Shown in pieces: positions 10,261 to 62,945 of a stretch of 64,000 bases of DNA (position 1 is the stretch's first letter; each line of letters starts with the position of its first letter). Location: positions 310,001-374,000 of the forward strand of contig RSEE01000063.1 in assembly GCA_003971905.1 (NCBI GenBank). The letters run 5' to 3'. Made by a program: the position numbers and the translations under genes. Origin of the DNA: Moniliella sp. 'wahieum' (Eukaryota > Basidiomycota > Moniliellomycetes > Moniliellales > Moniliellaceae). The notes under the pieces are model-generated. The model saw nothing but the letters and a program-made list of their open reading frames with translations, did not search any database and was not told the origin of the DNA.

Positions 10261-10287
10261 TGATGCATGATGCATGATGCATGATGG
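10261..10287 (+). repeat. 7-bp array, unit TGATGCA
   Basis: Nearly four tandem copies of TGATGCA (TGA plus palindromic TGCA). The reverse-complement array, TCATGCA, is at 10,697-10,722. Both belong to the heptamer class described in the findings. Confidence 0.95.
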
Positions 10288-10696
10288 GAAAACGTCCTTC
10301 ACACTGGCGCCATCCCAAGCTTGATGATCGATGATCGATGATGGGGACCTGTGACAGTGTGACATGTGAGCGGCGGAGCGCTGAGCAACTGAGCGCCTCA
10401 GCCGGACGATCTGCAATCACCCGCCGATCGGCAGGGCCATAGTGGATAGTGCATGGTGCATGCATGATGTGCATCATGCGAGCTGCGTTGGAACACTCTG
10501 TACCTTCCCAACAAATACGATGGCCCGGCTGGAGCCTACACGACCTGACTATAGTGACTGGTGCTGTCGCAGGCTATCGCTCGCCTGTCGCTCGTGTCCC
10601 CGTGCAGCTTGAAGCTGGGCCTCGGCGGCTCACTTGGCAGTGGCCGGCCAGGAGCGGCACCGGCGGCCACCCCCGTCACGCGATTGGGACCATGCG

Positions 10697-10722
10697 TCAT
10701 GCATCATGCATCATGCATCATG
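10697..10722 (+). repeat. 7-bp array, unit TCATGCA
   Basis: Almost four perfect tandem copies of TCATGCA, the reverse complement of the array at 10,261, so the two can pair as an inverted repeat about 410 bp apart. Confidence 0.95.
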
Positions 10723-11142
10723 TGTCATGCATTGGCGATGCCGCGGGAGCGCCGTAGCGCGTAGCGTGTAGCTGCAAGCAACGGCGACTGGCCACAGTGT
10801 CGCAGTGCTGGCTTCAAGCTCTAAGAGCTTTAAGCTTCAAGTTTCAGCGAGTTGGACCCTGTTGACCGGTTGACCGCATCGTCTGCCTGCCAAGTACCAA
10901 GCACCTGGATCAGCGGTTCGACCCCGCCGGTCAGTTGGTCTCGGTCACTCGGTCACTCGGTCACCTCGGCCACCGTCCGCGTCACTGCATCATCTTACCC
11001 CGTCGGCGTGTTGGCCAGCTGGTCGAGTAGGAGCGGCAACAGACCCACGGAGTAGGCCAACAGCAAACAGGCAACAAGAACTTCAAGCGCCGATGCATGG
11101 CTTGCATTTTCGTACGCTGCTCGATTTGCTTCAGAGCTCGCT

Positions 11143-22200: not shown

Positions 22201-22619
22201 TCATGTGTACCAATCAGTTTTACCCTGCTACTAAGCTCGCCACTGACTTCAATTTGGTTCCCTCTTGTTAGAGGGTACTACTAGGGTTCTCCTGCGCGGC
22301 CCTCAATGGATCGGTGACGCTCGCCTAGCCGAGCGGAAGCGTTCCGCTCGCAGGCCGCGCACGCCCTGCTCGCTCCATCTCCCTTCTATCTCTCCTTTCT
22401 CCTTCCCTTCAGACGTTGCTTGAAGACTCTTGTGGCTCACCACTTTGCCTTCACGTCTTGTCTGAAGGCTGCTTTGCAGCTGATCCATAGGATCGCGAGT
22501 GCTCCCAAGTCGCACTCTAGCACCTCTGACGTGCCTCGCCCCAAAATGATCCAGGAGTCGGGCCCGGACACAAAAGGGCAAAAAATTTGTCCAGGTAGTT
22601 ATGGGGTCCTGGCGAAGTA
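19286..22619. other. Gene-poor interval with element remnants
   Basis: The first part (19,286-19,560) is the promoter side of the four-TM gene. At 19,735-19,790 a mixed TGA/TCA heptamer cluster based on ACGT occurs. From about 20,150 to 21,600 the sequence looks like degraded retroelement DNA: a TATATATAGAGG box near 20,412, a copy of the 205-bp repeat family at 20,321-20,406, and broken frames such as MELPGLSEEELKGHWAKHEP near 21,134. None of these frames is long or recognisable enough to call a gene. From 21,600 to 22,619 I see nothing definable. Confidence 0.55.
20321..20406 (+). repeat. 205-bp repeat family, partial copy A (3' part)
   Basis: Shares GTGGTGGCGCTACCAAGTAA, then TAGCGTTTCCTTGTCCCA, then TTAAGCTCTGTCAATGATATGG with copies at 30,404, 30,555, 38,768, 42,727 and 54,651. 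Divergent copy. Confidence 0.8.
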
Positions 22620-22641
22620 CATAGCTAATCGAAATTTCTAG
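22620..22641 (+). repeat. Left terminal inverted repeat of transposon copy 1
   Basis: This 22-bp sequence is the exact reverse complement of 27,979-28,000 and is identical to 57,545-57,566. Confidence 0.95.
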
Positions 22642-22791
22642 TCACAACGTTGCCGCCGATCTCGCCTCAAGGTGAGAAATTGATACCGTGAGTCTATGAT
22701 TAGAAGTGCCACAACCCTGTACAAGAAAAGCTTGCGCAAGATGGTCGCCAAGGTCGAGACAATCTATACCCGACAGCTTGGCCCCAGGTTA

Positions 22792-22840
22792 CCCCCACCT
22801 ATCCCCCACCTATCCCCCACCTATCCCCCACCTATCCCCG
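22792..22840 (+). repeat. 11-bp tandem repeat CCCCCACCTAT inside transposon copy 1
   Basis: About four units; copy 2 has only two at 57,715-57,741. The length difference accounts for part of the size difference between the two transposon copies. Confidence 0.9.
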
Positions 22841-23573
22841 GACAGTCCGCAGCCTTGCTGGCAGGCTGGTGGCAAGGGTAGCCACAGATATTTTCACTAG
22901 GCTGGCGGCTAGGGCGGTGGCTAGGGTGGTGGCTAGGGTGGTGGCTAGGGCGGTGGCTAGGGTGCCACGATGCTATCAGATCAGGCAGTGGATTATCTTT
23001 AAAAGCATGCATTGCCATGGTTGTTTAGACACAGAGACGTAGAGGAGCGCCAAGGCAACGGCAGGTTGTTCGAGGAGCCTCAGGACGGCGGCAACCACAG
23101 AAGCTTTGCCTTCGTCGTTTAATCGCAGACCAAAAACATCATGGGGACACGGAGATGATAGGGATCGAAGGGCAAAGATACAAGAGCCTTACAACTTGCG
23201 GCGTGGGGACGAAGCGTCATCGCGTTCGAGAGGGAGAATGAGTCCCGCAACCATACGGCGAACGATGATCTGTGTGCAAGCCTGTATATGTTCCGTGGTC
23301 GTTTCCTCAGCACTTGAGCGCCTTCTCCGATCATCCTGCTTAAAGGTGTTGTCAGTATATGGGCGGATAAGGACAAAGCGCAGGTACTGACCTGGCCGGG
23401 GAAACCGTCGCCGTCGACCGTCCGCTGGAAGCGCCCCCGTCGTTGATCTTCAACTCGCCTTCGGGAGGTATGACCGGCATCTTGGCGCAAATGATATCAG
23501 GCAAGGCTGTGCCGCCAGGCGTGGCCGACTCAGTTCCGGTGGCTGCGCACAGGCCAGTCAGGACGGCAGGCAT
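22821..23573 (-). CDS. Divergent minus-strand accessory gene of transposon copy 1, unknown function
   Basis: Read from ATG 23,573-23,571 (MPAVLTGLCAATGTESATPG). An intron at about 23,343-23,394 has GTCAGTACC donor and TACTGAC branch point. The next exon encodes ETTTEHIQACTQIIVRRMVA, then ASVVAAVLRLLEQPAVALAL (with LYVSVSK), then a Pro-Ser-His repeat tail (HPSHHPSH...). The same reading exists at 57,779-58,470 in copy 2, with conservative changes (QACT to LACT, SAEE to SVEE), which supports coding. Single-base shifts occur near 23,190 and 23,010. The helical LLEQPAVALALLYVS stretch vaguely recalls a cyclin-like helix, but I would not assign a family. It lies head to head with the transposase-like frame. 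Confidence 0.55.
22898..22964 (-). repeat. 12-bp tandem repeat inside transposon, encodes His/Arg-Pro-Ser-His units on minus strand
   Basis: Units of the form GGTGGCTAGGGT on plus, about five copies. On the minus strand they read as tetrapeptides HPSH/RPSH within an open frame. Copy 2 has the same array at 57,800-57,866 in the same frame with different His/Arg choices. Confidence 0.85.
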
Positions 23574-23979
23574 CACAGCATGGGGGGCGTGGACGTACCG
23601 AGGTCGGGCGCGTGCACGGCAGGGGGGCGTCAGTGGGCGGCGATAGCAGCACACGTATTCATGGTGATTAGTACAAGCCGTGCACACGGCAACACAGCTC
23701 TGGTAGTAGTGTGTGGCCAACGAGAGAAGAGAGGCTGTGGTGGTGGCGGTGGGGTGGTAGTCGAGAGGCAAGCGCATCGGCGCAGCTGCGTGCGGTTATA
23801 GGCGCAACCACCGGTGGCCCACCGGTGGTCCACCCGCATGGCGCCAGTGTTGCCCCCCCACGCCACCGCCCACCTGCAGCCTGAGCGTTTAGTATATATA
23901 TAGATTTTTTTAAGCTACGCACTTGAGATAGTCGTGACAGCAGCTATATACAGCACGATACTCCAGTCCAACCGTCTCG

Positions 23980-26900
23980 TTGCGAGAGAAGACCGCATTC
24001 GCACAAGTCGCGTTCCAGAGTGAAGGGAAATTGCCTCTCTTTACTCGCTCAACAAAACTAAAAGGCAATCGAGACGGTGTGCCAGCCTCGTGTGTATCGA
24101 GCAGTTTGTATCAGGAGACGATATACATTGGGTCCTTCGCGGGCGAGACCGCATTTTCCACCTCATACATGTCCTCGAACTCGTCCATCCGCTCCAAGAT
24201 GTCACAGTATCCCAATCCCTGGTCTCTCAGGGCGATTGTCCAGGCCCTCAAGGACGGGTTCATTGAAGAACCACACAAGGGACGATGGGATCTGATCGGC
24301 ACAAGGACTCAGCCGATGGTCATGCTCAATAAGCATCCACGCGATCTGGCCATTCACATGTACCTTGGCGAATCTGTTCACCTGGTCAGCATTTCGCGCC
24401 TATCTTTCCCGTCTTGTGGCAACACGACGCTGATAGCGACTCGTGGCACGGGATCGGAATCGACCTGGTCCAAGACGAGACGTCCAACCTGCGTGAAGTA
24501 CACCGGCAACAGGACACGCGCCTTCATTCTTACTCAGTTGGACATAACCAAGTTGCGCCTCTAACGACTATACCATTAGTAAGTTTTCTTGCTCTTCACG
24601 CAGCGGCAATTCTTGTCGGGTTGACTGATGACTTCCACATCCTGGTACGACACAGGAACAAGGGACGGTGAGGAAATTGGGAAGAGCGTCAATCCCCTTC
24701 GAGCCAAGGCCTGTGGCCGAGCTCTGGTCCGTCTCCAGCTAGTGGGCTGGGCTGATGGTTTTGCAGACAATGTGTCCAATCGGCCAAGCTCTCTGAACAG
24801 CATGCTGCTGGGCAACATGCACGTTTCACGGTCGCAGTCTAGATGGGCAAGGAACCTTTTCCTCTTTGCATCGGAAACGGCCAAGTCTCCTCCCGTTGTG
24901 TGAGCAGTTGGTAAAACAGCTAGAACCCTAAGTGAGTATCGCAATCTAAGCCAAGTTGCCTTTGAAGTCGCCGTGATTCCTGGGCAAAAGCAGCATGCTA
25001 ACGTCTTTTTCGAACTTGCAGGCAGTATCACGAAGACCTCATCCCTGTCTGGGATTCGACCACCGAGGGATGGATCCTTGTACAGCCCGTGCTGCGGATG
25101 ATAAAGGGCGACAACGTGGCCGCGAACGAGATGGCTTCCATTATGGGCATGACTGCCCACGTGTGCTGCCGTTTTTGCGATGGCGGACGGCAACGGGGAA
25201 CGAATACGTTGGCGGAGAACGTGGCTGACTGTCTTGTGCGTATACGACACCACTGGTGTTACTGCTGTGCATCAAAATGGGACTGAATATAACCGGCGGA
25301 TACATCAAGACGGAAAAGGCGATCTACGTTCAAGTGTCGAAACTAGGCGCGAAGTCGATCACCAATAACTCGACATGGTCGTCAAGAACGACGGCCGTGT
25401 CGACGATCGGGCGAGCCAGACCGGGGTTAACGACAAAAGTATATGAAAGACGTATCCTTTATCCTGTTCAAGTCCCGCAAGACTCTGGAGGACTCAGCCG
25501 GGGCGACGAATGGCAAGAAGCGGAAGAGGCTGCTTTCCAATTTGGACTCCGGCGTTCGTGAGCTGCTGGATGAGTTCAAGAACAACGGCTAAGTGTTCAA
25601 CCCCTTTTGACTGTCCACGAATGGCAGGGGTGCTCGAGTTTCTCGGTCGGCAAGAGCCTGGCGATCGACGTCATGCACACAGTTCTCCTTGGGCGAGTCA
25701 AGGCCTCGGTCGAGCTGCTGACGGACTCGAACTTCGATAAGGGGCCCTCGCTAGCGCTGTGGCTGGATTCGTTCAACTCGTGGGGCATGGAATCGGTGGG
25801 TCGACGGCTCAATGGCACTAAAGTGGTTCACAGCATGCGCTCAGTCATCACGGGGGTTGACTGCAAGATATTATGCCAGACTCTCCCTCTGGTGCTGCCC
25901 AAGTTGGTGGCCACTCTGCGGTTGGACTCCGCCAAGCCCGGCGTCACGGAAATGGCGAGACAGAGACTTCTGAGCAAGATTGAGAGGCTGGAGAATGTCC
26001 GCAAGTGCATTGTGGCCGCCGCACGCATTAAGTGGCTTTGCTACATCGATAGCTTCGCATTTCAAGACCGAGCTACATATGGCGTACATCTGAAACTGCT
26101 AGCTCTCCTAGGCCCGTGATCATCTTCGCTAGTCCAAGTTCACAACTTACATTCTGCCCCGTACAGATGTGCCCACAGGAACTGCTTGACAAGGCGGTGA
26201 TTCACATTTTCATGGCCATCGCTGCCATCGACCCGGCCATGCTCGTTCGTCGCCCCAAGTTCCACCTTCTGAGTCACCTCTCCCAGCAGGCGCTGTTGTG
26301 GGGTCCTCTCAAGAACGCTGACACACAGCGTGAGGAGGAGTTTGTCCGCGTCATGCGCAATGCGGTAATATTTACGAACCGCAAAGATATATGCTGCGAC
26401 TTGAACTACAAGGTAGCAGCCCAGGAGAACCTGCAAAACCTGCTATGTGGAGGGCGGGCAATCGACATGCCGCGTGCAAAACTCGTGTCCCGCGATACAA
26501 CCCCTGACGATGAAGGGGAGGATGTGACACAGGGTCTGCCCGGTGGGAACACCAAGAAATTGTCCGCAGAGGTCTGGATCGGCAGGGGCCGAGCAGCTTT
26601 GCAATTGAATGGTACACCGCCTCAAGCTGGCACGACGATTCAGCTCTTGGGCCAAGGGCTCGGCAGTGTGTGGCAAGTCCCTCCCGCACCCGGTACCGGC
26701 CGCAACAGCCCTTCCAGCGCTGGATCGTGTCCGGCTTCGATCCAGACTGTGGCTAAGGCCAAAGTCATATCGGTGCACGACAAGGTTGGGCTTCCTGAAC
26801 CAATGACAGCAGAGCGGCGTTCTGCCACTGGGCCGGTCGAAGATATTGTCGACATGCCGTTGGTCCGCGTACAGCATGGCCAGCTTTGTGCTAGGGGGGA

Positions 26901-27527
26901 CTGGGTGCTTGTTGCCCAACAGGATATTGGTGAGTCCTCCCACCCCGCCATGCCCAGAATCCTGATACGCCGCCCTTCTCCATTGGCGGATAGAACATTG
27001 CCGCCCAACGGCCTAATATGGTTGCTGTGCACCGGCGGGCCAATCCGACTCGCGAGGGGGGGTCGGGAGCAGCGAGGACTGGTTCCAACCTTGTGCTCCC
27101 TGTGCTTTGGGTCAATGTCGCTTTGGCTCGCATCATGCCTATCGACTCGGCATATGACATGCGAGGCCTTGAGCTACCGCGCGCGTCCGCCCGACAGATA
27201 CATTCCGGCTTTGCAGATCCACACATCTTTGGTTCGCTTAACGTCCAGCACAATTGCGTGAAGGCAAGTGCCGGGTTGTCCCCAACAGCATTACGGATAC
27301 AACCACTGGCTTGACGTTCGATGGGGTCCAGCACAACAACTTGTCTGGGATGTCGGCGGAACAGCGCTATACGTGCTCAACCACTTTGTCAACTCTTTCT
27401 CTCCCCACACCGATATATTCTGCGACTTGCGGACTTGGCTTTTGCCCAGGACTGGGCGGTCGAGGGCGAGAATGTCCCTTCTGCCGACGATGTTTTGGAG
27501 GCAGTACAATCCGTAATGAATGTTTAG
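23980..27527 (+). pseudogene. Degraded large transposase-like gene, transposon copy 1
   Basis: Long plus-strand coding trace with many frame breaks. Left part: IRSKMSQYPNPWSLRAIVQA (about 24,190), LIGTRTQPMVMLNKHPRDLA, and WDSTTEGWILVQPVLRMIKG with DNVAANEMASIMGM (about 25,050-25,150), then HVCCRFCDGG, a Cys/His cluster. Middle: VHEWQGCSSFSVGKSLAIDV with MHTVLLGRVK (about 25,610-25,700) and RRPKFHLLSHLSQQALLWGP (about 26,250). Right: FNVQHNCVKAKC-like and the terminal ADDVLEAVQSVMNV, ending at 27,527. The GDN.MA, IDVMHTVLLG and PKFHLL blocks match the large DDE-type transposase-like proteins common in Agaricomycetes (Plavaka/Tnp2-like), though the subfamily is tentative. Copy 2 at 58,863-62,411 breaks at partly different places, so some breaks are private errors or mutations. 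Confidence 0.75.
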
Positions 27528-27978
27528 ATATTTCCCGAATGGCTACTAATGATGGTAGTCACCACTGTTGATGTATACTCTACACCATCAGTCTATCACA
27601 GTTGCTAGCGACTTGGCTGAAAACGAACACAGCACATGGGCTGCCCAAAGATTGCCAAATTGCTGCGGGAGGCTTAGGCTCCAATGGTGCAACGGCCAAT
27701 TCCTACTATTGGCTGGAGAAACCTCAGGTTCAATTCGTGGGTGGGCCATCTTTTTAAGATGTCTCGAGGCTGACCGCCGTTCACAATATTGTGATTAGAA
27801 TAGCGGGCAAGGTTGTGACGAGCTTTATAGGCAGCAATCTAGGGACAACTTCGCTGGGCGGCCTTGCCGCAGTGTGGTCCAAGAGGTTGGGGCTAGCTGT
27901 GTTGGCGAGGCGGCTGTGACAAGGTTGTGCCCCTCAAATCTAAAGACAAGCTTGTGGTGTGGCCGGCAAGGTTCTGGG

Positions 27979-28000
27979 CTAGAAATTTCGATTAGCTATG
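27979..28000 (-). repeat. Right terminal inverted repeat of transposon copy 1
   Basis: Exact inverted match of the left end; identical to 62,852-62,873 in copy 2. Confidence 0.95.
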
Positions 28001-28768
28001 TACCCAAGCCCCGATGTACTCCCTTGCCTAACCCTCCCAATGTACTGTCTCCACCCGGCTTTCATATCTGTACTTCGGGCAGGCTGATAGTGTCGTGTGG
28101 CATAGCCCCAACTCAGAATTTGTCTTGACACTCTTCCTCGTGATATCTCCATCTCATCCTATGCGGGAGGACACAACCCCCGCCCCCCCAAACTTTAATT
28201 TGCGTTCACATTTTCCCTTCAGCGTGAATGCCATTCAAGGTTTTCAGTTATACATATACAATATGGCCTCTACTGTCGGAACAAGCTGAATGCTACAAGA
28301 ACGCAATTGCAAATACCACGGACGTACCCAATAGCCCTTCTTCTATGAAAAGGGACTCTCGGGATGTGGTTCATTCCAAGAGAGGAGCCCGCCAAGGGCA
28401 GAACATAAAAGTAAGAATCGGATTACGCAGTGTGGAAGGGATGTGATATGTCAGATCTACTAACGCACTGGTCTGTTACCTCTTCCAGGTTACTATGGCG
28501 ACGCGAGGACACTATATGCCGCCAGCATGGCGAACAAGATGGTGTTTGAGCGCTGGAAAGAATCAACTGCCAACAACGAGTCCCATTGGATATGTGGGTG
28601 AAGTTCACCGCTCTCAAATGTCTCTGCCACGCTATCATTCTTATCCTCACTCTTTTATGCGCGAAGGCGCTCTCTCTGCTCCATATAGTACCGTCAACTG
28701 TGTATATAAGGCCCTATCCTTCTCATAGCCTCTTATACCTCTTCTCAGAACCATATATGTTGTCTGTG

Positions 28769-30466: not shown

Positions 30467-30554
30467 CGATCATCCGGCGTCTGTTGCTTGTTAGCGCCAA
30501 CCCCGCTTAAGGAGCCAGCAGGGTAATCGCCAGGAGATTATATCTTGCTCGGAT

Positions 30555-30760
30555 GTCTACCACGTTCATCCGTGTCCACACGCGCTTCCTAGGGTACGGG
30601 ACCGGATGGCGACCACCGGAGGGGTCCTGGTATCGTGGCGATCCCCCTGGTTCTTTAATCTTGGTGGCGCTTCCAAGTAACCCCCGCAAGATGAACGGTT
30701 CGGTTTATCAAACGTAGCGTTCCCCCTGTCTCAACGCCAAGCTCTGTCAATGAAATGGAT
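30555..30760 (+). repeat. 205-bp repeat family, near full-length copy C
   Basis: Runs from CACGTTCATCCGTGTCCACA through GGGTACGGGACCGGATGGCGA, CCCCCTGGTTC, CCCCCGCAAGATGAACGGTT and TAGCGTTCCCCCTGTC to GCTCTGTCAATGA. It is the mirror-orientation match of the whole 38,768-38,972 insertion. Confidence 0.85.
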
Positions 30761-31063
30761 GCAAAGAGACTTTACGTCATGCTTACCTATTTGTTTGCGC
30801 CAGGTGGAGTTCCCATCCCACCTCCGCGCGCTCAGCCATGCGTGTGGGTGATGAAATTCGGCCTCTCCAGCGTGGAACGGTGACCAAGGTGGCGACGGTG
30901 GAACGATGGAACGGATGGTTGCCGTGGCGACGGTGGCCCAGCACCCAAACCGGGCCGTAGGCCCGCTGGTCCCCTAGTACCAGATGATCGATGAGCGCTC
31001 AGGCTGAGCACCATACAAAGCAACAACTTTTTTTGGGAAGTGCGGAATGAATAATGAGGGAAG

Positions 31064-31150
31064 GCTAGTAACTAGTAACTAGTGACTAGTGACTAGTGAC
31101 TAGTGACTAGTGACTAGTGACTAGTGACTAGTGACTAGTGACTAGTGACT
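31064..31150 (+). repeat. Longest heptamer array, unit TGACTAG (about 10 copies)
   Basis: Perfect 7-bp tandem array of TGACTAG from 31,083 to 31,150. It is preceded by two units with TAA instead of TGA (TAACTAG). CTAG is one of the palindromic tetramers of the class. Confidence 0.97.
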
Positions 31151-31617
31151 GCCTCTACATGTTCGCCCACATCAACGTTCAACAGTCTTAGGAAATCCTA
31201 GCCTCGGCAACCCGCGTTCTTATTCGCTCACAGTCTGTATGTCATTCAGGGTGTGTGCGCCCAGCATGCCCTCCATATGATGAAGAGTATGAGGCCGTCG
31301 GGTTAGGCTGAGGCGCCGAGGGGCCTGACATAGGCTTCAGCTTCAGCTTCAACACCTGAAGCCTGAAATTTGAAAGGGGACACGCTCGATTAATGTGGGT
31401 CATGTGGGTCAATTTCCGACACGCTCAAAAGTTGGTGTCGCATGCCACACATGTGATCTACGGCGACCCCGTATGTGTGCCTGAGGAAGGGGTTGTCGGG
31501 AACTAATGCATGTGCGACCTCATGTAACCGTAACCGGTAACCAACCGACTGTAAATATGCACAAACATATCATTAAATCAAATTAATCATTGTTCTCCCA
31601 CCGGAGCATCCCCATTT

Positions 31618-31641
31618 TCAGATCTGAGATCTGAGATCTGA
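31618..31641 (+). repeat. 7-bp array, unit TGAGATC
   Basis: TCA then three GATC-TGA units at exact 7-bp spacing. A TCA version (TCAGATC) lies at 45,818-45,843. Confidence 0.95.
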
Positions 31642-32440
31642 CAGCTTTACAAGCATGAGATGCATGATTATAGTATGAAGAGCCACAAAAGGTCATCGAG
31701 TGCGAGCTCTCTCGGTATTATCAGGACTTCACACATCATGTGCATCATGCATCACCGGTAACCAGTGGTTACTATACCTTGCTTGTACGTGAATCCGTCA
31801 ATCGCGACTGCCCTCTCCGACGTTCCGCACGTCAAGTTTCAAGCTTCAAGCTCTTCAAGTCTGCAGCACCGTTAATAAGCGACTGTGCTGGTTTTTGGTT
31901 ACCGGCGGTTAATACCCGTTTGACAAGCTAGTACTACTCTACTTGACGGTAACGCGGTAACCGGTAACGCCCGGTAACCGGTAACGCGTAACGTGTACTA
32001 CTTGCATGCTATACCAACAGTAGATGGCATCTATATCCTCGATCATGTCGATCATGCATCATGCATCATGCATTATGCCAATGATGCATGATATGTTGTT
32101 GTTGACAATATCGCATTGTACCTGTCACACATGTCACTCACTCATTTTATCAACGTGTCGGAGATGTCGTGCCTCCTTCTGTCCCTCGAAATGTAAGAAG
32201 CGCCCGTTCAAACGTTCATGACGTTCATGCATCATGATGCATGACATGTGACATGATGACAGGAACCGGGGGATACTCTCAATACTTTGGTACTCGATAC
32301 TCTCGTAGTACTCAGTGGGTTCTGCGGAATACTTGATACTCAGTCCGAGTGCTGAACGTACCCAACGGAACGTTCAACGCGCTCAACGACGTCAACGTTC
32401 AACATGCTCAACAGCGTTTATCATTTAATGTTCAAAACGT

Positions 32441-32480
32441 TGAAGTTGAACGTTGAAGCTTGAAGCTTGAAGCTTGAAGT
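32441..32480 (+). repeat. Mixed heptamer array (ACGT then AGCT)
   Basis: TGA-AGT-TGA-ACGT-TGA followed by three AGCT-TGA units. The spacer and phase continue across a change of tetramer. The reverse-complement TCA-AGCT array is at about 32,648-32,685. Confidence 0.95.
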
Positions 32481-33802
32481 TCAACCGCAGAGTCCGGTCG
32501 AAAGCTATACTATTACTCGTGTCAATCTATCTGTAGTCAGTATACTTACGAGTCACTCTAGTCACTAGCTAGTCAGTGCTGAGACTGTCGTCACGCGTCA
32601 GTACTCAGTGCAAGCTCCAAGTTCTTCAACAAGCTTCAAGTTCTCCAAGCTTCAAGCTTCAAGCTTCAAGCTCTTCAAGCTTCAGTATTCGGTACCAATA
32701 TCAGTGCGGAGGCGCTGAGTACTACTAAGTACTCAGTGAGTACTAAGATATAGTATGAACTTTGAACGTGAACTTGCATCCTTTTAAGTACTCTGTTCTG
32801 TTGCATTAGGGTTATGGTGCTTGGACCATATAGTACAGGATCTATCTAGAACTTATATTAAACCCTCAAAGACGTGCACAGTGTGCAAGTCACATCTGGG
32901 AGCATATGAGCGTGAGCGCTGCATGTGACACACATGTGGGCAATGTGAGCCATGTGAGCAATGTGAGCGCTGAGCGCGCGCTGCGGCTGAGCCCGCTGCA
33001 CAGTCACTTGTCACTAGTCCGTAATCACCACAGTGATCACTAGTCACTACAGCCACAACCATTTTGGTTGTGATTGAGTGGGTATTATGATTGTGGGTAT
33101 TCTATTGATGGCCTTGCGCGTTCCAATGGACCGCTGCGTGCATCTGCATCAACGTCAGCTAGGCGCCGAAGCGCGAAGCTTTGAAGTGACTAGTGACTAG
33201 TGACTACATTGGAACACAAGTGCTTCAAGCTTGAAGCCGTGCTGGGCGCTTCTGCGGCCTTTGCTTCCTAGCTGAGGCCCTGAAGCCTGAGAAGCAGGCG
33301 CTCAAGCGCTCAGGCCTGAGCCTCAGGGGGAAACAAGGTTGCGCTTGGTCACGCTCCTCTTAGAGGGACTGTGACATGTGAACGTTGAACACCGAACATC
33401 GGCAGTGCACCTGAGGCCTTGAGGCTTGACGCTGATAGTGATTGACACTTCGGTGACTTTCACAATCAGTGTATGTGTAGCCACCCGGGTGGAGTCCTTT
33501 CGAGCCCCAGTGTGTGTGGCAACTAGATTCCGCCTCAAGCTTCAAGAGTGGAACGACGGGCAACTCGAATTCTTCTTGCCTGCCACCACCTCGCCAACGC
33601 TAGTGCCCTTGCTTTTCAAGTTCCCTCGGTTCTCGACGCCGCCAAGCTGCGTCGCCACTGAACGCATCGCACCCGTTCGTGCTTTACACACGCCAGCACA
33701 ATCGTCGCACACCCGCACGGCTCTTTTTCTTCGCATAATCCGACACTATCGATACCACACTTCTTCTGCGCCTCCTTTCACCCGGGATTACATTCCTTGC
33801 TC

Positions 33803-38595: not shown

Positions 38596-39050
38596 TGACG
38601 ATGATCCTCCGGCTCTTAGTCGGTAATAGACCAGGCTCGCTCGGTTCCATTGGCTTCCACACGCGCGGGTATCGTCCCAGCGAGTGTTGAGTCTGCCCCC
38701 CTGATGTGCCCTGCATAATCGCTTCCCGTATATCTCACTTGCCCTGTGCCTAGTCCGGCCTCCTTTTGAATTCATATCATGACAGAGCTTAAGGCTGGGA
38801 CAGGGGGAACGCTACGTCTAAACCGAACCGTTCATCTTGCGGGGGTTTTTGAAAGCGCCACTAAGGTCAAGGAACCAGGGGGATCTCGCTAGGATATCAG
38901 GACCCTCCGGCTCTCGCCATCCGGTCCCGTACCCTAGGAAGCGCGTGTGGGCACGGACGAACGTGGTTGACAGGCCTCCTTTTATAATTAGATGCCTCTG
39001 CGCCCATACCCAACTCTGGCTCCAATCCATCACCTTCTCCTCATCATTCT
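38596..39050 (+). repeat. LTR-like repeat interrupted by a 205-bp insertion
   Basis: Left part 38,596-38,767 and right part 38,973-39,050 together match the uninterrupted copy at 28,769-28,970. Full element ends and any coding body are not recognisable, so LTR is a description of appearance (a TATATATA box upstream, promoter-like) rather than proof. Confidence 0.7.
38768..38972 (-). mobile_element. 205-bp SINE-like insertion with 11-bp target-site duplication
   Basis: Flanked by GGCCTCCTTTT at 38,757-38,767 and again at 38,973-38,983. The element has no terminal inverted repeats. Its sense strand is minus: it begins TGTCAACCACGTTCG and ends CTCTGTCATGATATGAATTC next to the TTTT side of the target. 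A T-run target with a variable-length duplication is the signature of target-primed reverse transcription. Possible weak pol III boxes (TGGCGAGAGCCGG and GGTTCCTTGACC) are about 40 bases apart, but I would not rely on them. Related copies are at 20,321, 30,404, 30,555, 42,727 and 54,651. Confidence 0.8.
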
Positions 39051-39540
39051 GCGCGCTGAGACTCAGCGCGCTCAACCGGCTTCCTAGGCCAACAGGTGTC
39101 ACATGTCACCGGTCACCAGCGGCGACACAACCGAACGAGAAAACCCAATATTTTTTGCCTTTTTGTGCGACAGCGGGGTGCACGCGCGAGTAGTACTTAG
39201 TAGCCGTGCATATATAGATGCGGCCGCGGTTGCCCGTCTAGGTACGTAGGGGCGCTGAATAAACCATATCCCCTAAGAAGGCCCAAGTGGGGGGTGAACG
39301 TGTGAACGCAGCGTTACATCCGTACGAAGACAACTAATACTAATATTGATTGCAGCGCGCACAAGACGCACTCCACATCAGTTGTTTTACTGCGCTTACT
39401 GCACCGAGGGAACAGCATCGTAAGCGTAACCCTTGAAGCTTGAAGCTTGCGGTGTGGAGCAAAGCTTCTTACAACATACGCCGCTATAGCGGCCGTCTAA
39501 GGATGCAACAGTCCGGATATACGGTCCAATACAAAGAGAA

Positions 39541-39558
39541 GTGACTAGTGACGCGTGA
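39541..39558 (+). repeat. Mixed heptamer array (CTAG then CGCG)
   Basis: TGA-CTAG-TGA-CGCG-TGA at exact 7-bp spacing, changing tetramer between adjacent units. Confidence 0.95.
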
Positions 39559-39642
39559 CGACTAGAGGCCAGTGTGACACAAGTGACTGCAGTGACTAGT
39601 ACTAGTAGTACTTCACTAGTACCTAGTATAGCTAGTGGCTAG

Positions 39643-39707
39643 TGATGCATGATGCATGATGTATGATGTATGATGTATGATGATGATGCATGATGTACGA
39701 TGCATGT
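39643..39707 (+). repeat. Heptamer array TGATGCA/TGATGTA
   Basis: Two TGATGCA units, three TGATGTA units, then TGATGA and further TGCA-containing units. It shows single-base drift from the palindromic tetramer TGCA to TGTA. Confidence 0.95.
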
Positions 39708-40902
39708 TGCTAGATGGAATAGCTTCAAGCTTCAAGGATATCGATCGATTGATCGATCGATCATCGATCATCCGGCACAATCGCTAATGTTAGCTTTGAC
39801 GAGTGTGTGTATTATAAAAGTACTTTGCCGAGGTCTTCTGGCCCCTCAGGCCTCAAATTCCTCAAACCGGATCCCTCCCACATATTTTCTCCCTTGTTTC
39901 TCTGTTATATATTGTTTCTGTTATATATAGATCTGGACATAAATCATATGGGGTGCGTTTCGGGAGAAGAGAGATATGATGCAATGCATGATGGGTTTTT
40001 CATCCGTCAACATAACTATGTTGTATGGTGTCGTTAAAATACTGCGAGAAGAGTACTGACTGCCACAGAGTAAGCCCTCTCTTCAGAGGCGGTGCGTGAG
40101 GCGTGAGGCGCGAGGCGTGCGGTGCGGTCAGCACAGGTGCCTGCTCTGCATTCTTTTTCTCCAACAACACCAACACATTAGTTAAAGAACAGATTCAGCC
40201 ATATCTATGGTACATCATTGCATCACCATCTTTGTACGCCTACCAAAATGGCATTGTCAGTGTTACGAAAGGGTGGAGATTATCGATCGATTTAAAGAGA
40301 GAAAAGTCCGTTAGGGACAGAGCATATATATGGGTGAGTCGCATACATATAACAGCGCCAGAGATGATGTGTGAACAGCTACATGCATATGGTGGCGTTG
40401 ACAACCTCGCCGAGACCCGACGCTAGAATCCGACGAGAGTTTGGAAGAGTGTCGGGTGTCGGGATCAGACTCGATCATAGTTGTCTGGCCCCCTTGATTT
40501 GTTCTCCACCCTGTTTCCCCCCCTTTGGATTGTGCCCTCTTTTCCTCGTGTGACTTAGCTCGCATTTCTCTTCTCCGAGACATATATATACCCCGCTCTC
40601 TTTCCACAACACTCGATGAATATGATCCCCATCCTTTCCCCCATCCCCTCCTGTTAGGTTTGATCCCACTCACAGCCTTCCGGCTTTCAGCCCAATCGCC
40701 ACCCCCATGTCCGCTGGACACATCTCTCTACCCTTCCCCTCCCCTATACACCACATGTCCGCCGCCGCACACGTGCTATTGCGTCCCACGCGGCCAGCTG
40801 AAGGAGGAGGATAAATGAGGATGTGGTTCTGAAGAGAGGTACAGGAGACTGTGAGAAGGGGAGGGGCCGTATATATAGGCGAGGTTACCAGGAGCAGAGG
40901 GA

Positions 40903-40946: not shown

Positions 40947-42634
40947 CGTGTGATGATTGGGCATCCCCAACAAGAGACAGCTGGCAGAGGAGAGGGATCT
41001 GAGCCAAAGAGATGTGCTTGATGCGAGGAGCCTCTGATCCTCAGTCAAGCTATAGCTTTTTGAACAGAAGCGAGGCTGTCAACCTCTCGTCTACCCGCGC
41101 CTTTTTAGTTACCCCCGAACCAATCATCCCCAGCGCTGCATGGTGGAACTGTCAGTCCGGAAGCGCCTCCAACCAGAGCCGACAGAATTGGGCCCCCGTC
41201 AACAACTCCACAACATGTTAGCTATTGCCGCCGCCGCTGTCACCGAGCCGGCCACACCCCTACCATCGCCGCCAACGCGCCGTAGATTCTTTTCATTTTC
41301 TTTTACAGTGCGGCCGACTTTGGAGAAAGTTGCAGGGAGAACTGGGGCAAGGGAGAACGTTTAATTGTGACGACGCCACGGTACCTATATGACAGGATTT
41401 TCGGACAAAGATTAGGCATCACGGTGGCCATGCAGCGTATGAGATTTTGGATGAAGACAGTTTGAGGGCTTTTTGTCCTCTTCATTCTGTACACGCGTGT
41501 TGAACACGAGAGGGACCCACAATTCGAGAGGAGTGGCGCGTGGTCCTTAGTTCTCGCTTGGGAGATGATCTTTGTTCACGGTTGTGGCTTCGGGAAAAGG
41601 CCGCGGTCTGTGAGGCATGACATATATGCCTAAAAGATTAATGGTATTACGTATCTATTAATGGTGGTACTGTATACTCTTCAGACCAAAACATACTTAT
41701 TAACCATCGCCTGATTCGCTTCATTTAGTTGGAGAACGAACGGAATGATGAGAGTTGTGATGATCGAGATGGACGCTTTCTTCTGTACGGAGTTTCGACG
41801 GATTCTAGGGGAGACGACAATTCCCGGGGTAAGAAGGACGATAACTTTGAAGACAAGGTCATGAGAGCCAGTGTGGAGCCCGTGCCTATTCGGATGATAG
41901 TGTAGCGACGCAAGTATGCCAGAACGCAAGCGAGACACAACAGTCTCTACGATGCAGACAGCGAATACAGCGGAGAGAGGGGGGGAGTATTGAGTATAAG
42001 CGGGAGCGGGATACAGGTGGAGGTAAGGCAAATACAGGCGTTGCTACGAGAAGAAAACAAAAGCTTCTGAGTAGGTAAGCTAACTGAAGAAGGCCTAGCC
42101 AGCCACGTGGCAACAATAGGATGCGGCTGCCTCCTTTGTACCAGTATATTGCGCCCCACACGCGTGTGTTGAACGTTGAGAGGCCATAATCAACAAAGCC
42201 AATGCCTGTCTTATCATCACTTTCGTATAGCCCCCCCCACTACGGATGCGAGCACGATGCCACCCGCCAAAATCTTGGAGCTCAGCCTGTGAGCGACAAG
42301 CAGGTTCAGGTTGTGGTCACCAGCTTCGTACTCCAATGTGGTCTGATGCTACCGCTTGGGCACAACTCAGTGGCTATTAGGACCCGCACTCACAATCCCA
42401 TCCAAAAGTTTGATTTTTGCCACGTTTTACACGAAACTGTTCGGGAACCGATCTTCAGGCCCCATGTTCCGACGTACTGCGCTCCATCCCGGACACCGAC
42501 ATTCTCAACGAGTGGGTTCGGGAGGATGAGGACAAATGCGTTTGGGGAGGAAGGACATCATATACGTACGGATTTTACCGAGTAGTGATGCTAGTGATGC
42601 ATGATGGGACCAGGAGTGCCCGGGAGATCAGGAA

Positions 42635-42660: not shown

Positions 42661-42726
42661 GCGGATCACACACCTTGAGGGAGAGTCCTGAATTCGGAGG
42701 TGCAATATAATGATACCAGCCATTAT

Positions 42727-42840
42727 CCCCCTGGTTCCTTGACCCTGGTGGTGCCCCCAAGTAACCCCCGCAAGATGAACGGTTAGGATTAGACGTAGCG
42801 TTCCCCCTGTGCCAGCCTTAAGCTCTGCCAATGACATGGA
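42727..42840 (+). repeat. 205-bp repeat family, partial copy E (3' half)
   Basis: CCCCCTGGTTCCTTGACC, then CCCCCGCAAGATGAACGGTT, TAGCGTTCCCCCTG and CTTAAGCTCTGCCAATGACA match the sense strand of the 38,768-38,972 insertion. The 5' half is missing. Confidence 0.85.
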
Positions 42841-44423
42841 ATCAGTGACGCGGAGGGGTCATACAAAATGTCACACGGGAGCCACACATGCTACTAGCTT
42901 CCAAGTATTTTCGCGAGACGGTAACGTTTTTTGGTAGCTAAAGGTTTTAGGCCGTTAGGCGTTATGACCCTGAGACCCGAGGGCCTGAGAGTAGCTGGTA
43001 ACCGGTACAACTGGTAACCGAAAACGGCAACTGCCTAATAAGGCTAGCAACTGGTATATATATAACCTGTGACATGTGATAACTCGATAACCCTAGTGGC
43101 TTGTGGGCATATGCGACTTGTAACGTTGACATAGTGGTGTGTGATTCTGTAGTACGGGGTGGCGACAGCGAATGTGGTGGGCGCAGCGATCTTCCAGCAG
43201 CGCAGCAGCTTGGGACGAGGCGGGGGGGCGGGGCTTGTGGGGCTAACATGCAACAACAGGCCGATGATTAAGGAGGCGCTGAGGGGTGACCTCACCGGTC
43301 AGCTGAGGCCTGAGAATCTGAGAGCGCTGAGGCGCGGAGGCTCAAATCCAGCATGCACATGGCGTGCTGTGAGCCTCAGAGCCTCAATATGCTGGACGAG
43401 CCGCAGACCTCTCGCTTCGTGTGGAACACGCTATGGCGATGATCGCTGAGCGATGAGCGATCGATGAGCGTTGTCTGTGAGCCATGCGACATGCGACATG
43501 CGAGCGGAATCATCGTCTTATCACCACTCTCGTCTGGGATTGTAGATTCCGGGGGGATCGCGGCGCGTCGGAGAGAAAGGACGATGAAGCTTGAAGCTTG
43601 GAGAGGGTGTGCTGTCGCCAATGCATCCTACGCCCACCGCCCCCAGCCTGGGAGAGGCACATAGGCCAGCACCTAGCACCTAGGCCGTAGACTTCTCCTA
43701 CTTGCGCAAACACACCTAGCGCTTTGCAGAGCGAGCTCCCTACAAACTGCTCCGCCGAGGCCAATAAGGCCGGTGGTTGGGGGCTTGAGATTTAGTTGAT
43801 GTTGAATATTGAATCCTCACCGGCCGGTCACCTGAGGCCCAGAGGCCTCAGCCTGATGATCGATGAGGTCGATTGAGATCACCGAGATCATCCTGGTAGG
43901 GACTGGTTCGTTGCTATTTGCGATAGTTACTAGTTACTAGTTACGACTGAGCTCTATAGCTACGAGCACACTCGCGAACTCAGTTGAACGTGTGTACTCC
44001 GTTACAACGCAACACGGCTGAGCAGTGCGTGGTCGACCTGCTAGAGCTCTGTTGGTCGGCGTGTTCAACGTTCAGTGGCATGTTCCTCGGCAACAGATCA
44101 CGCTGCCTCCGTGATGAGGTATGGTCCAGCAGTCAGTTCCGACTTCCGCATCCTCGCCATCTCTTGCCTTACCCGCGTCAAGCTTGGCTGTGGACTGCCA
44201 CCACCACCACCACTCCCTTCGCCCACCCTCGCCAGCATGTCCCGCCTTCATTTGCCTCATCATCTGCCTCATCCTTCGCTGTCAGTCGGTTACCCGCCCC
44301 TGCACCGACACAGAATGAACACACCGCCGAGCACATCACCGAACAGAGGGCGGTGCCATCGTCAGTGACCATGGCACGCTCCCTCCGGTGCCATCGGGTG
44401 CTATGCTTGATCCTTGCCCACAG

Positions 44424-54084: not shown

Positions 54085-55045
54085 GACCCCCCCCTTCTCT
54101 TTCGTCGTCTCTGTATCTATACGTTGGACATGTTGTTGAAGGTTGAGTAAACGTATATCACGTTTATCTGATCTCTGAGCTTTCTTCTTTCGTCTCGGTT
54201 GAACTTATTGTCGCACAGTTCCATCCTTGGTTCAGAACGTTCAGACATGGTGGATGTAGATCTGTTACCATGTTACCATCCAAAATTGCAGAGGGTAGCA
54301 GAGTTGTGTACTTACAACAAGCCTCAGCGAAGGAATGCCATATCTATCATCAATAGCTGCACTGAAACAGGATAGGAGATGGCGGGGACGTATCAATGTG
54401 CTTTATCCTCCCCATACGGATTGAAGACTTCCTGGGGAGAGATAATACATGTGTGCACCGTTTCCAAACATGATGCATGGATCATGATCACCACAACCGA
54501 TCAATTTCTCCAGCAAGCGCCGACAGTGTCCCCAGTAACTAATAATTAATAACGGTTCGTCCCCTGTCATGCATGTCACCTGGCACTCCAACCAGACAAC
54601 CGCATCATTGCAATGTCCTTCAAGCTTCACCCTTAGCTCTACTTTCCATATGTAACCCGCAAGATGAACAGTTCGGTTTAGACGTAGCGTTCCCCCTGTC
54701 CCTGCCTTAAGCTCTGTCACATGTCAATGATATGCATTCGAAAGTAGAGATTACCCGCAACGTTTGAATTAGGAGCAACGTTAGACGTTAGAATTACGCG
54801 CAACGTTGCAATTGCGCGCAAACGTTTGTAACCGTGGAATCATGATGCGTGACGCGCATGACGTCTGCAAAACGCCCTTGTGACATGTAACGTGCAGGCT
54901 GGTTGCGGTTGCCGCGTGGTGTGCTGGTGGAGCGTACGTTGAGCCCTTCGGGCAACATGCCTGCGTCCTTTAGCCACCAACCACCAGATCCCTACCACCT
55001 CCCCACTCCGTCTTCCATCCATACCCTTCGGGATAGCAGAAGCGC
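54085..55045. other. Intergenic region
   Basis: It contains copy F of the 205-bp repeat family and short AACGTT/GCGCAA-rich sequence around 54,755-54,835, where ACGTTAGA, TTACGCGCAACGTTG and related words repeat. No gene is seen. Confidence 0.6.
54651..54734 (+). repeat. 205-bp repeat family, partial copy F
   Basis: ACCCGCAAGATGAACAGTT, TAGACGTAGCGTTCCCCCTG and CCTTAAGCTCTGTCA match the family's 3' third; a CATGTCA insertion precedes ATGATATG. The copy is bracketed by a 10-bp inverted sequence, CTCTACTTTC (54,636) and GAAAGTAGAG (54,741), which is not seen at other copies. Confidence 0.8.
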
Positions 55046-56644: not shown

Positions 56645-57544
56645 CTGAACAGCCACGGGCCTACGTCCCGCCGGCTTTTTAGCATAACTGTCGGTGGGGG
56701 CGGCTCCTGTGCGCGACATCAGCAATAAACTCTCTGTCATCTCTGCACGTCCTCGATGCCCTGCTGTCTGATGCAGCCCCGTTCACCCACCGCCGCTTCC
56801 ACGCGGTTGCTGAGTCCCGTGGCATTCCAACATGAAGGCGAGCTGCGAGCCTAGTAATGATGGCTTCAATCATCGCATCATGACGTGCCGTGTCCGTCTT
56901 TTGGTGGAAGAGAAGTTTTATTTCTGCCCCGGCTTTCAAAAGTATACGCTCCAACTTGCAGTAGTTTAACCCAGTGTGTGTAACCCATGTAAAACCGGTG
57001 TAACTGGCGACTGAGCCGGCCGACGCCAAAAGAGACACACTGCATAGTCAGGTCCTCATGTGTTTTGCGCCAGGATTCGTCAAACGTCAGTGGAACCTAT
57101 AAAAGGGACATGCATGGATCGTGGACTCCAGAAGGACTCTTGCTACCACGCCAGTTTTAATGAGAATGTGGTGGCAGAGTACTGACCGAGGTGCTGTCAG
57201 TGCTCACAGTTTATGTCACCATGTGTTGGGGGTATTCAATTACACGACACCCGTCATCGGGGCTTTGGTTACCGGAAATGGGATCCTTTGCATGAGAGGA
57301 TACCGTAAGGAAGGGGTTGGGTTGATGTAAGATGGAGAATGAAGATTGAAGGGCGATTCATTGATAGAATGGGGTTCAGGGTTGCCAACCCCGAGAACGA
57401 TGGAGAGCCACAATATTTTTCCCGTGGGCTCTGTAGTCGCCTGGGTTCTCGACAGAGCGCATCTTTGTGTTAGGGTACGCCGCGCACTCCGCACGCGCGT
57501 CCTACGGCTATAGTCACGGCCAACCCATCCCACGTTCGTCTCTA
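56645..57544. other. Intergenic region upstream of transposon copy 2
   Basis: No frame with a recognisable domain. The insertion point of the transposon is at TA 57,543-57,544. Confidence 0.6.
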
Positions 57545-57566
57545 CATAGCTAATCGAAATTTCTAG
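57545..57566 (+). repeat. Left terminal inverted repeat of transposon copy 2
   Basis: Exact inverted match of 62,852-62,873. Confidence 0.95.
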
Positions 57567-57778
57567 TCACAATGTTGCCGCCGATCTCGCCTCAAGGTGA
57601 GAAATTGATACCGTGAGTCTATGATTAGAAGTGCCACAACCCTGTACAAGAAAAGCTTGCGCAAGATGGTCGCAAGGTCGAGACAATCTATACCCGACAG
57701 CTTGGCCCCAGGTTACCCCCACCTATCCCCCACCTATCCCCGACAGTCCGCAGCCTTGCTGGCAGGCTGGTGGCAAGG

Positions 57779-58470
57779 CTAGCCACAGATATTTTCACTA
57801 GGCTGGCGGCTAGGGTGGTGGCTAGGGTGGTGGCTAGGGTGGTGGCTAGGGTGATGGCTAGGGTGCCACGATGCTATCAGATCAGGCAGTGGATTATCTT
57901 TAAAAGCATGCATTGCCATGGTGTTTAGACACAGAGACGTAGAGGAGCGCCAAGGCAACGGCAGGTTGTTCGAGGAGCCTCGGGACGGCGGCAACCACAG
58001 AAGCTTTGCCTTCGTCGTTTAATCCCGGACCAAAAACATCGTGGGGACGCCGAGATGATAGGGATAGAAGGGCAAAGAACAAGAGCCATACAACTTGCGG
58101 CGTGGGGGCGAAGCGTCATCGCGTTCGAGAGGGAGAATGAGTCCCGCAACCATACGGCGAACGATGATCTGTGTGCAAGCCAGCACATGTTCCGTGGTCG
58201 TTTCCTCAACACTTGAGCGCCTTCTCCAATCATCCTGCTTAAAGGCGTTGATTGTCAGTATAGGGCGGATAAGGACAAAGCGCAGGTACTGACCTGTTGG
58301 CCGGGGAAACCGTCGCCGTCGACCGTCCGCTCGAAGCGCCCCCGTCGTTGATCTTCAACTCGCCTGCGGGAGGTATGACCGGCATCTTGGCGCAAAGGAT
58401 ATCAGGGATCGCCAGGCGTTGCCGACTCGGTTCCGGTGGCTGCGCATAGGTCAGTCAGTACGACAGGCAT
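57779..58470 (-). CDS. Divergent minus-strand accessory gene of transposon copy 2, unknown function
   Basis: Counterpart of 22,821-23,573. ATG 58,470-58,468 gives MPVVLTDLCAATGTESATPG. The middle exon reads EETTTEHVLACTQIIVRRMV and LILPLERDDASPPRRKLYGS, then ASVVAAVPRLLEQPAVALAL and LYVSVSK. The tail has PSHHPSHHPSH tetrapeptide repeats and ends at 57,779 in one frame. Differences from copy 1 are mostly conservative or whole-codon, apart from single-base shifts. Confidence 0.55.
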
Positions 58471-58862
58471 CCGCCCGAGGGGCGTGGACATACCGAGGCC
58501 AGGCGCTAGCACAGCAAGCGCGTCGGCGGGGGGGCATATAATGGCAGCGCAACGAGCCGGACACATGTCACCAGCTCCGGTAGCACAGTGTGTGGCCAGC
58601 GAGAGAGGGGCGGTGGCGGTGGTGGTGGTAGTCGAGAGGCAAGAGCATCGGCGCAGCTGCGTGCGGTTATAGGCGCAACCCCGGTGGTCCACCGGCGGTC
58701 CACCCGCATGGCGCCAGTGTTGCCCCCGCACGCCACCGCCAGCTCAAGGCGCCCACCTGCAGCCTGGGCGTTTAGTATATATATAGAGTTTTTTAAGCTA
58801 CGCACTTGAGATAGTCGTGACAACAGCTATATACAGCACTATACTCCAGTCCAACCGTCTCG

Positions 58863-61800: not shown

Positions 61801-62411
61801 GTGAAGTCCTCCCACCCCGCCATGCCCAGAATCCTGATACGCCGCCCTTCTCCATTGGCCGGATAGAACACATTGCCGCCCAACGGCCTAATATGTGGTT
61901 GCTGTGCACCGGCGGGCCAATCCGACTCTCGCGAGGGGGGGTCGGGAGCAGCGAGGACTGGTTCCAACCTTGTGCTCCCTGTGCTTTGGGTCAAGGTCGC
62001 TTTGGCTCGCATCATGCCTATCGACTCGGCATATGACATGCGAGGCCTGGAGCTACCGCGCGCGTCCGCCCGACGCATGACTTACATTCCGGCTTCGCAG
62101 ATCCACACCATCTTTGGCCCGCTTAACGTCCAGCACAATTGCGTGAAGGCCAAAAAGTGCCGGGTTGTCCCCAACAGCATTACGGATACAACCACTGGCT
62201 TGACGTCCGATGGGCTCCAGCACAACTTGTCTGCGACGTCGGCGGTACAGCGCTACTTGCTCAACCACTTTGTCAACTCTGTCTCTCTCCCCACACCGAT
62301 ATTCTGCGACTTGGGGACTTGGCTTTTGCCCAGGACTGGGCGGTCGAGGGTGAGAATGTCCCTTCTGCCGACGATGTATTGGAGGCAGTACAATCCGTAA
62401 TGAACCTTTAG
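58863..62411 (+). pseudogene. Degraded large transposase-like gene, transposon copy 2
   Basis: Counterpart of 23,980-27,527. It shows MRSKMSQYPNPWSLRAMVQA (about 59,070), a WDSTTEGWILLYSPC-like stretch with a shift, HVCCRFCDCG (about 60,040), DVSFILFKSRKTLEDSAGAT (about 60,310), VHEWQGCSSFSVGNKSLAID with VMHTVLLG (about 60,480) and the terminal ADDVLEAVQSVMNL, ending at 62,411. The middle region (60,310-60,650) is open for about 115 residues where copy 1 is broken, and other breaks occur only here, so the two copies complement each other as evidence for the ancestral frame. No intact protein can be read from either copy as given. Confidence 0.75.
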
Positions 62412-62851
62412 ATCCTTCCCGAATGGCCATAATGATGGTAGTCACCACTGTTGATGTATACTCTACACCATCAGTCTATCAGTTTTTAGCGACTTGGCTG
62501 AAAGCGGACACAGCACGTGTGGCTGCCAAAGATTGCCAAATTGTGCGAGAGTCTTAGGCTCCAATGGTGCAACGGCCAATTCCTACTATTGGCTGGAGAA
62601 ACCTCAGGTTCAATTCGTGGGTGGGCCATCTTTTTTAAGATGGCTCGAGGCTGGCCGCCGTTCACAATATTGTGATTAGAATAGCGGGCAAGGTTGTGAC
62701 GAACTTTATAGGCAGCAATCTAGGGACAACCTCGCTGGGCGGCCTTGCCGCAGTGTGGTCCAAGAGGTTGGGGCTAGCTGTGTTGGCGAGGCTGTGACAA
62801 GGTTGTGCCCCTCTAAAGACAAGCTTGTGGTGTGGCCGGCAAGGTTCTGGG

Positions 62852-62873
62852 CTAGAAATTTCGATTAGCTATG
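62852..62873 (-). repeat. Right terminal inverted repeat of transposon copy 2
   Basis: Exact inverted match of 57,545-57,566. Confidence 0.95.
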
Positions 62874-62945
62874 TATGCATCCAAGCTGGCGTGTGCATCC
62901 ATGCTCACCGGTGCACAAAAAATCTCATGTAGATAGCACGTAAGG

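Follow-up and report, generated by a model that had tools for sequence, protein, structure and literature searches.

A 7-bp repeat rule of TNA and free palindromic tetramers, and its probable origin in the repair of hairpin-sealed breaks

Introduction

The 64-kb window studied here (the whole stretch of DNA that was analysed, part of a genome of 69.5 Mb in 223 contigs) raises the question of how a repeat can keep its phase and spacer length while the spacer itself is free to be any self-complementary tetramer. A sequence-only reading had described the pattern as TGA or TCA alternating with palindromic tetramers; all 14 examples that it quoted can be found there (12 exactly at the stated position, those of GGCC and GATC at most four bases off), and palindromes occupy 92 of the 141 TGA-N4-TGA and TCA-N4-TCA spacers of the window, against 2.0 on average and at most 6 in 100 dinucleotide shuffles. 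The observation is confirmed, and the interpretation attached to it is partly supported. The accessible portions of the sources that our literature search returned describe no repeat class with such a rule. We propose that the units are probably excision footprints of a cut-and-paste DNA transposon with a 7-bp target duplication, NN-TNA-NN, and hairpin-sealed flanks, the agent being one that we infer.

Results

TNA pairs enclose palindromic tetramers across the genome

Our unselected sample consists of 15 ten-kb stretches (150 kb) placed by coordinate only; the other five of the 20 sampled stretches (L021, L022, L023, L025 and L026) were placed near known word matches. The pooled 264-kb counts, which comprise middle bases, spacers, periods, the dinucleotide table, flanks, mixed arrays, n rates and occupied-site scans, include those five biased stretches, and for TNA-pair enrichment the 15 unbiased stretches were also counted apart. 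Every neighbour pair inside an array is counted as one unit.

The enrichment persists outside the window: in the 15 unselected stretches, 131 of 257 same-trimer TNA pairs enclose a palindrome, 8.2 times the 1/16 expected, while the other 15 outer-base classes in the same 150 kb lie between 0.53 and 1.58 times expectation, leaving TNA as the sole class with an effect. In the five stretches placed near known matches, the corresponding count is 142 of 217. Nor are non-palindromic tetramers equally frequent, since a table of the first against the second dinucleotide of the spacer is a bare diagonal with all 16 palindromes present (264 kb); the tetramer is thus free yet self-complementary, as had been claimed, and TATA and TTAA, reported as missing, each occur once between TGA or TCA in 264 kb. 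TGA and TCA do dominate as trimers, but the true constant is T-N-A, TAA and TTA pairs being palindromic as well: by middle base, palindromic same-N pairs number 172 for G, 161 for C, 29 for A and 17 for T, with G or C in 333 of 379 (264 kb). TNA pairs with unlike middle bases are more weakly enriched (69 of 349 palindromic, 264 kb).

The spacing is equally specific. Among spacer lengths of 2, 4, 6 and 8, only 4 gives a strong effect (264 kb), and 135 of 215 period-7 arrays have near-palindromic units, against 47 expected from shuffled units (264 kb), 130 of these 135 being TNA-centred. Periods 4, 5, 6, 8, 9 and 10 show no excess of palindromic units, and period 11 yields 2 against 0.1. Double-palindrome N8 spacers (7 of 173 for TNA, six of the seven being one tetramer twice) lend weak support, because the control class ANC gives 6 of 305 as well. 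Genome-wide, TGAAGCTTGAAGCTTGA occurs 2270 times against 0 for the word in reversed order, TSACCGGTSACC 3006 against 140 and CTTCAAGCTCTTCAAG 123 against 0. Extrapolation from 131 per 150 kb of unselected sequence to 69.5 Mb gives about 60,000 units.

Units lie in islands and copy the bases beside TNA

Units had been said to run through much of the gene-poor DNA; in the window they are instead confined to islands of one to a few kb, at 10-11, 13, 31-34, 39 and 42-47 kb, and none occur at 14-20 or 21-30 kb. Three of the islands are upstream of ORFs that match Pfam families (lipase and Rieske; RRM; cyclin). The main island (30985..33440) is dense in TNA-palindrome units, 43 of them in 31-34 kb and many present in only one of two homologous copies. 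A second (10261..10732), consisting of TGCA-unit arrays, lies between the lipase and Rieske ORFs, and a third (39099..39710) holds arrays and mixed units.

Isolated units suggest how a palindrome comes about. Of 170 (264 kb), 51 (33+18) have a 7-bp match that continues for exactly two further bases on a single side; neither side is extended in 12, both sides are extended by two bases in five, and the run lengths differ from these in 102. Most typically a unit reads TNA-XY-yx-TNA-XY or the mirror image of this, the target bases being duplicated and a dinucleotide inverted between the two copies, and at least one predicted flank is present in 339 of 379 same-N palindromic units (264 kb). The duplicated target bases around the joint amount to 5 bp in this main form and 7 bp in a rarer form with a net gain of 9 bp.

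Where different palindromes adjoin, as in the plus-strand array TGA-ACGT-TGA-AGCT-TGA-AGCT at 32436..32479, the pattern TNA-pal1-TNA-pal2-TNA would reflect two events, one to the left and one to the right of a TNA, which predicts the second half of pal1 before the array and the first half of pal2 after it. Both predicted flanks are found in 18 of 26 mixed arrays, one in six and neither in two. A further count, that the TNA-centred dyad is kept in 0 of 26 mixed triplets, was discarded as evidence, being true by definition.

A homologous copy preserves states before and after insertion

The homologue of the window on contig C52 is 96% identical at the Rieske gene and 86% identical over part of the island. 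Among contigs C63, C52, C60 and C58, more distant Rieske copies lie on C60 and C58 (80-81%), with others elsewhere, and the genome is heterozygous, hybrid or duplicated. The comparison with C52 spans about 20 kb and is independent of the pooled data in which the footprint form was found; repeats inside the sampled stretches furnished no useful before/after pairs. Aligned columns are 96% identical, and the differences within the main island are mostly insertions.

Individual insertions on the plus strand can be read directly. At 31172..31183, TCA-AC has become TCA-AC-GT-TCA-AC, a gain of 7 bp for which C52 retains the state before, and at 43068..43079 a single mirror event of +7 has turned TG-TGA into TG-TGA-CA-TG-TGA. 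Plain slippage, which the earlier reading had already judged insufficient, does not predict such single new units at formerly unrepeated sites. A +9 event at 31844..31859 converted CTTCAAG into CTTCAAG-CT-CTTCAAG, a full 7-bp duplication with two inverted bases; GATCATG-TC-GATCATG at 32041..32056 has the same form, although there C52 is 9 bp shorter with substitutions and the case fits only at the looser tolerance. Two successive events at 42584..42606 added 16 bp (AGTGATG in C52, AGTGATG-CT-AGTGATG-CA-TGATG in the window), and 29 bp extra in the window copy at 31956..31984 are undone exactly by four TNA steps. In the array of about 12 TGA-CTAG units at 31065..31150, the C52 copy is about five units shorter.

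Taken over all 45 length differences of 6-60 bp, undoing TNA steps explains 12 within two edits, four of them with zero edits, and 20 within four edits, as against 2 and 4 of 45 for the 15 other pivot classes together; 25 of the 45 have no TNA fit even at four edits. By eye, longer runs of inverted bases are visible in the unfitted differences at 30985, 32306, 32568 and 32716; these runs could stem from hairpins opened further from the tip or from more than one event. The differences of exactly 7 bp number seven: a TNA pivot accounts for three and a CGA pivot for one, and the remaining three fit neither. The fitted cases at 31079, 31619 and 32646 are array growth, which slippage would explain equally well.

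Two inverted bases are the dominant outcome

To describe the products generally, we scored each 7-bp site S as S followed by its inverted last n bases and by S minus its first n bases, a form whose net gain is always 7 bp. At TNA-centred sites the rate for n=2 is 83.9 per 10,000, against 1.0-2.2 at four other centre groups (264 kb). The rate for n=1 is 29.7 against 1.1-3.1 at other centres, an estimated 40 or so of the 57 n=1 cases being ambiguous with n=2; for n=4 it is 5.2 against 0.3-1.6, for n=6 0.5 against 0.5-0.8, and for n=7 3.1 against 0-0.9. Because T and A mirror each other, n=3 cannot be told from n=2 by its letters, nor n=5 from n=4. Plain duplication (n=0) is not raised at TNA (17.7 per 10,000 against 14-40 at other centres), and at TNA-centred sites 5 or 9 bp long the n=2 peak is absent. 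With any centre, n=2 products occur at 0.61 per 10,000 8-bp sites against 5.2 per 10,000 7-bp sites, which does not match the 8-bp duplication typical of hAT elements. Inverted-form units number about 230 in 264 kb.

At asymmetric TNA sites, two inverted bases gained at one end and two lost at the other account for 118 and 98 of 481 pairs, against 9 and 7 of 1097 at GNC, CNG and ANT pivots. Products in which the second end is untrimmed, with the full 7-bp duplication and two inverted bases, number 9 and 10 of 228 (controls 3 and 4 of 1282), and those trimmed by one base 17 and 11 of 198 (controls 6 and 3 of 963). We rejected snap-back copying, which predicts a complementary middle base (TGA then TCA): 34 units are complementary as against 379 same-N palindromic units, and 35 differ otherwise. 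Deeper hairpin openings (n=4 or 5) would also give the complementary form. The earlier suggestion of hairpin-templated synthesis holds in part, in that a hairpin is very likely involved, but opening of a hairpin after a break fits better than synthesis along one.

The search for an element and its transposase

Scans for occupied sites in 264 kb found no excess of repeated TNA-centred 7-mers at distances of 30-4000 bp, and scans for elements with inverted ends and a 7-bp duplication returned only the arrays themselves and chance-like matches (264 kb). Among the large differences between the window and C52 over the roughly 20 kb compared, no element with a 7-bp duplication was found; judged by eye, their duplications are others or unclear. 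In profile searches of the genome run without a working control, the hAT profile PF05699 gave a best E value of 0.04, under the cut-off, and PF14372 and PF04937 gave no match; the KDZ profile PF18758, likewise searched without a working control, had no match at E ≤1. The weak hAT-domain match in L047 was set aside as a hAT gene, since by eye it does not look like one. The same picture would result from a low-copy element that jumped often, from one that has died out or lacks inverted ends (as Kyakuja does), or from a domesticated enzyme.

Discussion

Our results establish 7-bp insertions at TNA, products with a net gain of 7 bp among which n=2 dominates, and rarer products with a gain of 9 bp. 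Because the inserted sequence is free yet self-complementary, it points to a base-paired intermediate, and the palindrome itself looks like a by-product of repair. In the account that we favour, an element would insert and create a 7-bp duplication, then excise by a hAT- or RAG-like reaction that leaves hairpins on the flanks; an Artemis- or Pso2-like nuclease would open these 2 nt from the tip, producing a four-base self-complementary 3' overhang, XYyx, beside TNA; and end joining would seal one strand, fill in and trim the other overhang. Either end might win, which would give the two mirror products. Each product would carry yxTNAXY, a symmetric site; in a second round there the overhangs would match and the tandem would lengthen by exactly 7 bp. 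Since palindromic products offer fresh symmetric targets, arrays would grow. Rounds on both sides of one TNA would place different palindromes next to each other. The strong clustering in islands is beyond what the footprint model requires.

Several parts of this scheme have precedent in the accessible text of published work: Ds excision in Candida leaves P-nucleotide insertions (PMC5873905), hairpins in V(D)J joining are opened at 1-3 nt from their tip, most often at 2 (PMC3528771), rust fungi contain hAT families (hAT7) with 7-bp duplications (PMC12730594), and hAT elements use symmetric T..A targets, nTnnnnAn or nnnTAnnn (PMC10512250). Footprints of hAT elements (Ac/Ds) resemble the units described here in their target duplication, in a short deletion at one end with inverted P nucleotides at the other, and in a symmetric T..A target, although among hAT families a 7-bp duplication fits only the hAT7 of rust fungi, so far as the accessible part of PMC12730594 goes. 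They differ in that here nearly one form prevails (two bases inverted, two removed), units number tens of thousands by extrapolation and form arrays, and no resident element was found in 264 kb or in the roughly 20 kb aligned with C52. V(D)J coding joints, made by RAG and Artemis, share inverted bases that derive from hairpins usually opened 2 nt from their tip, as the accessible text of PMC3528771 has it, but the present scars are germ-line, lie at TNA sites, include a 7-bp duplication and belong to a genome that, judged by its gene content and composition, looks fungus-like and basidiomycete. Kyakuja elements of mushrooms are described in the accessible text of PMC12730594 as having 7-bp target duplications and no terminal inverted repeats; inverted-end scans would miss them for the latter reason. 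The KDZ domain gave no match here in a search that had no working control. We know of no described excision footprints of Kyakuja.

Two alternatives keep the break and the hairpin while dispensing with a mobile element. The same chemistry could operate if a domesticated transposase or other host enzyme cut TNA sites in a staggered way and gave hairpin ends, with end joining leaving the units, a reading that we regard as possible, if rather unlikely. The coexistence of some 230 inverted-form units with zero occupied sites in 264 kb argues for it, as does the clustering of units in islands, some of them upstream of ORFs, but the analysis brought no such enzyme to light and a 7-bp duplication normally arises by strand transfer of element ends, the route by which DDE transposases, joining those ends to staggered positions, duplicate their targets. 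In a bolder version, to which we give little credence, a RAG-like enzyme or one like Kat1, itself a domesticated transposase, would break and rejoin TNA sites in the upstream islands again and again, leaving V(D)J-like P nucleotides; the regulatory regions of some genes would thereby undergo constant rewriting with no mobile element present. Slippage during replication of odd-palindromic heptamers, promoted by single strands that fold into hairpins, would account naturally for arrays of up to 12 identical units and for the whole-unit differences between copies at 31079, 31619 and 32646, and may add to array growth. As an origin it is disfavoured and seems improbable to us: it predicts neither TNA over GNC, CNG or ANT nor period 7 alone, it leaves neighbouring different palindromes with their predicted flanks unaccounted for, and the new units at 31172 and 43068 do not conform to growth by copying an existing unit alone.

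The PIF/Harbinger/IS5-like clan typically makes TNA-like 3-bp duplications, and two bases left from each inverted end of such an element would be palindromic by themselves, so that the units could be a 3-bp TNA duplication plus those four bases. The accessible text of PMC12730594 likewise gives canonical Harbinger a 3-bp duplication. Yet all 16 tetramers occur, and the bases are therefore not the fixed ends of an element; in 339 of 379 units the bases left over match the target flank, and products with the full 7-bp duplication exist, making this reading disfavoured and very unlikely. Selection for evenly spaced dyads, for instance by a protein that binds palindrome arrays, had also been put forward, and the regular 7-bp phase and the position of three islands upstream of ORFs are what it would lead one to expect. 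We found no evidence pointing there and consider it highly implausible: the palindrome is made per event from the dinucleotide beside TNA, isolated single units obey the same rule with a repair flank, the islands differ greatly between the window and C52, and we know of no sequence-specific protein that would read "any palindrome".

If the units are excision footprints, as we favour, they suggest an origin for short tandem repeats, namely one break-and-hairpin repair event per unit, of which we found no description in the accessible portions of the literature. Micro- and minisatellites that arise by slippage also consist of short head-to-tail units whose number differs between homologous copies, but the units reported here arise at single sites by a site copy with an inverted dinucleotide, and neighbours may carry different palindromes. 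Since each unit would stem from one repair event, its letters would show which of the ends was retained and at what point the hairpin was cut, and the repeat could be any palindrome because complementarity would come from repair and not from selection. The genome would then be an archive of eukaryotic hairpin opening and end joining that is readable from sequence alone, and a direct search can now be made for the missing element or for a domesticated enzyme that stands in for it.

Other elements and repeats in the window

Two copies of one element, at 22617-28003 and 57543-62875, are 92.6% identical over the main match and have inverted ends that start CATAGCTAATCGAAATTTCT. Their ORFs have what we take to be a Plavaka/CACTA-like look, and Pfam gave no match for three ORFs of the element. 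We considered this pair as the source of the units and rejected it: the two flanking bases agree in 9 of the 12 complete pairs of ends in the genome (by eye), and its duplication is therefore 2 bp, not 7. The copy at 22617-28003 is absent from C52, as judged by a 5-kb offset, and both copies contain 11- and 12-bp tandem repeats (CCCCCACCTAT and CTAGGGTGGTGG) at 22792-22964 and 57716-57865.

A short interspersed family with a shared motif occurs at 38768-38972, in L046 near 40264, and at 30554-30765, 42725-42842 and 54644-54723; of these, the copy at 38768 has repeats of about 11 bp on either side and is not present in C52. A C52 insertion of 589 bp at window position 40264 has a similarly long duplication. 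A 219-bp insertion at 41897-42115, absent in C52, is flanked by ATAG and has TG..CA-type ends, and is possibly a solo LTR. Outside the window, L039 (C200:1-10000) has satellite-like repeats in tandem that are rich in GGGGAGAGAG and show numerous small differences in length.
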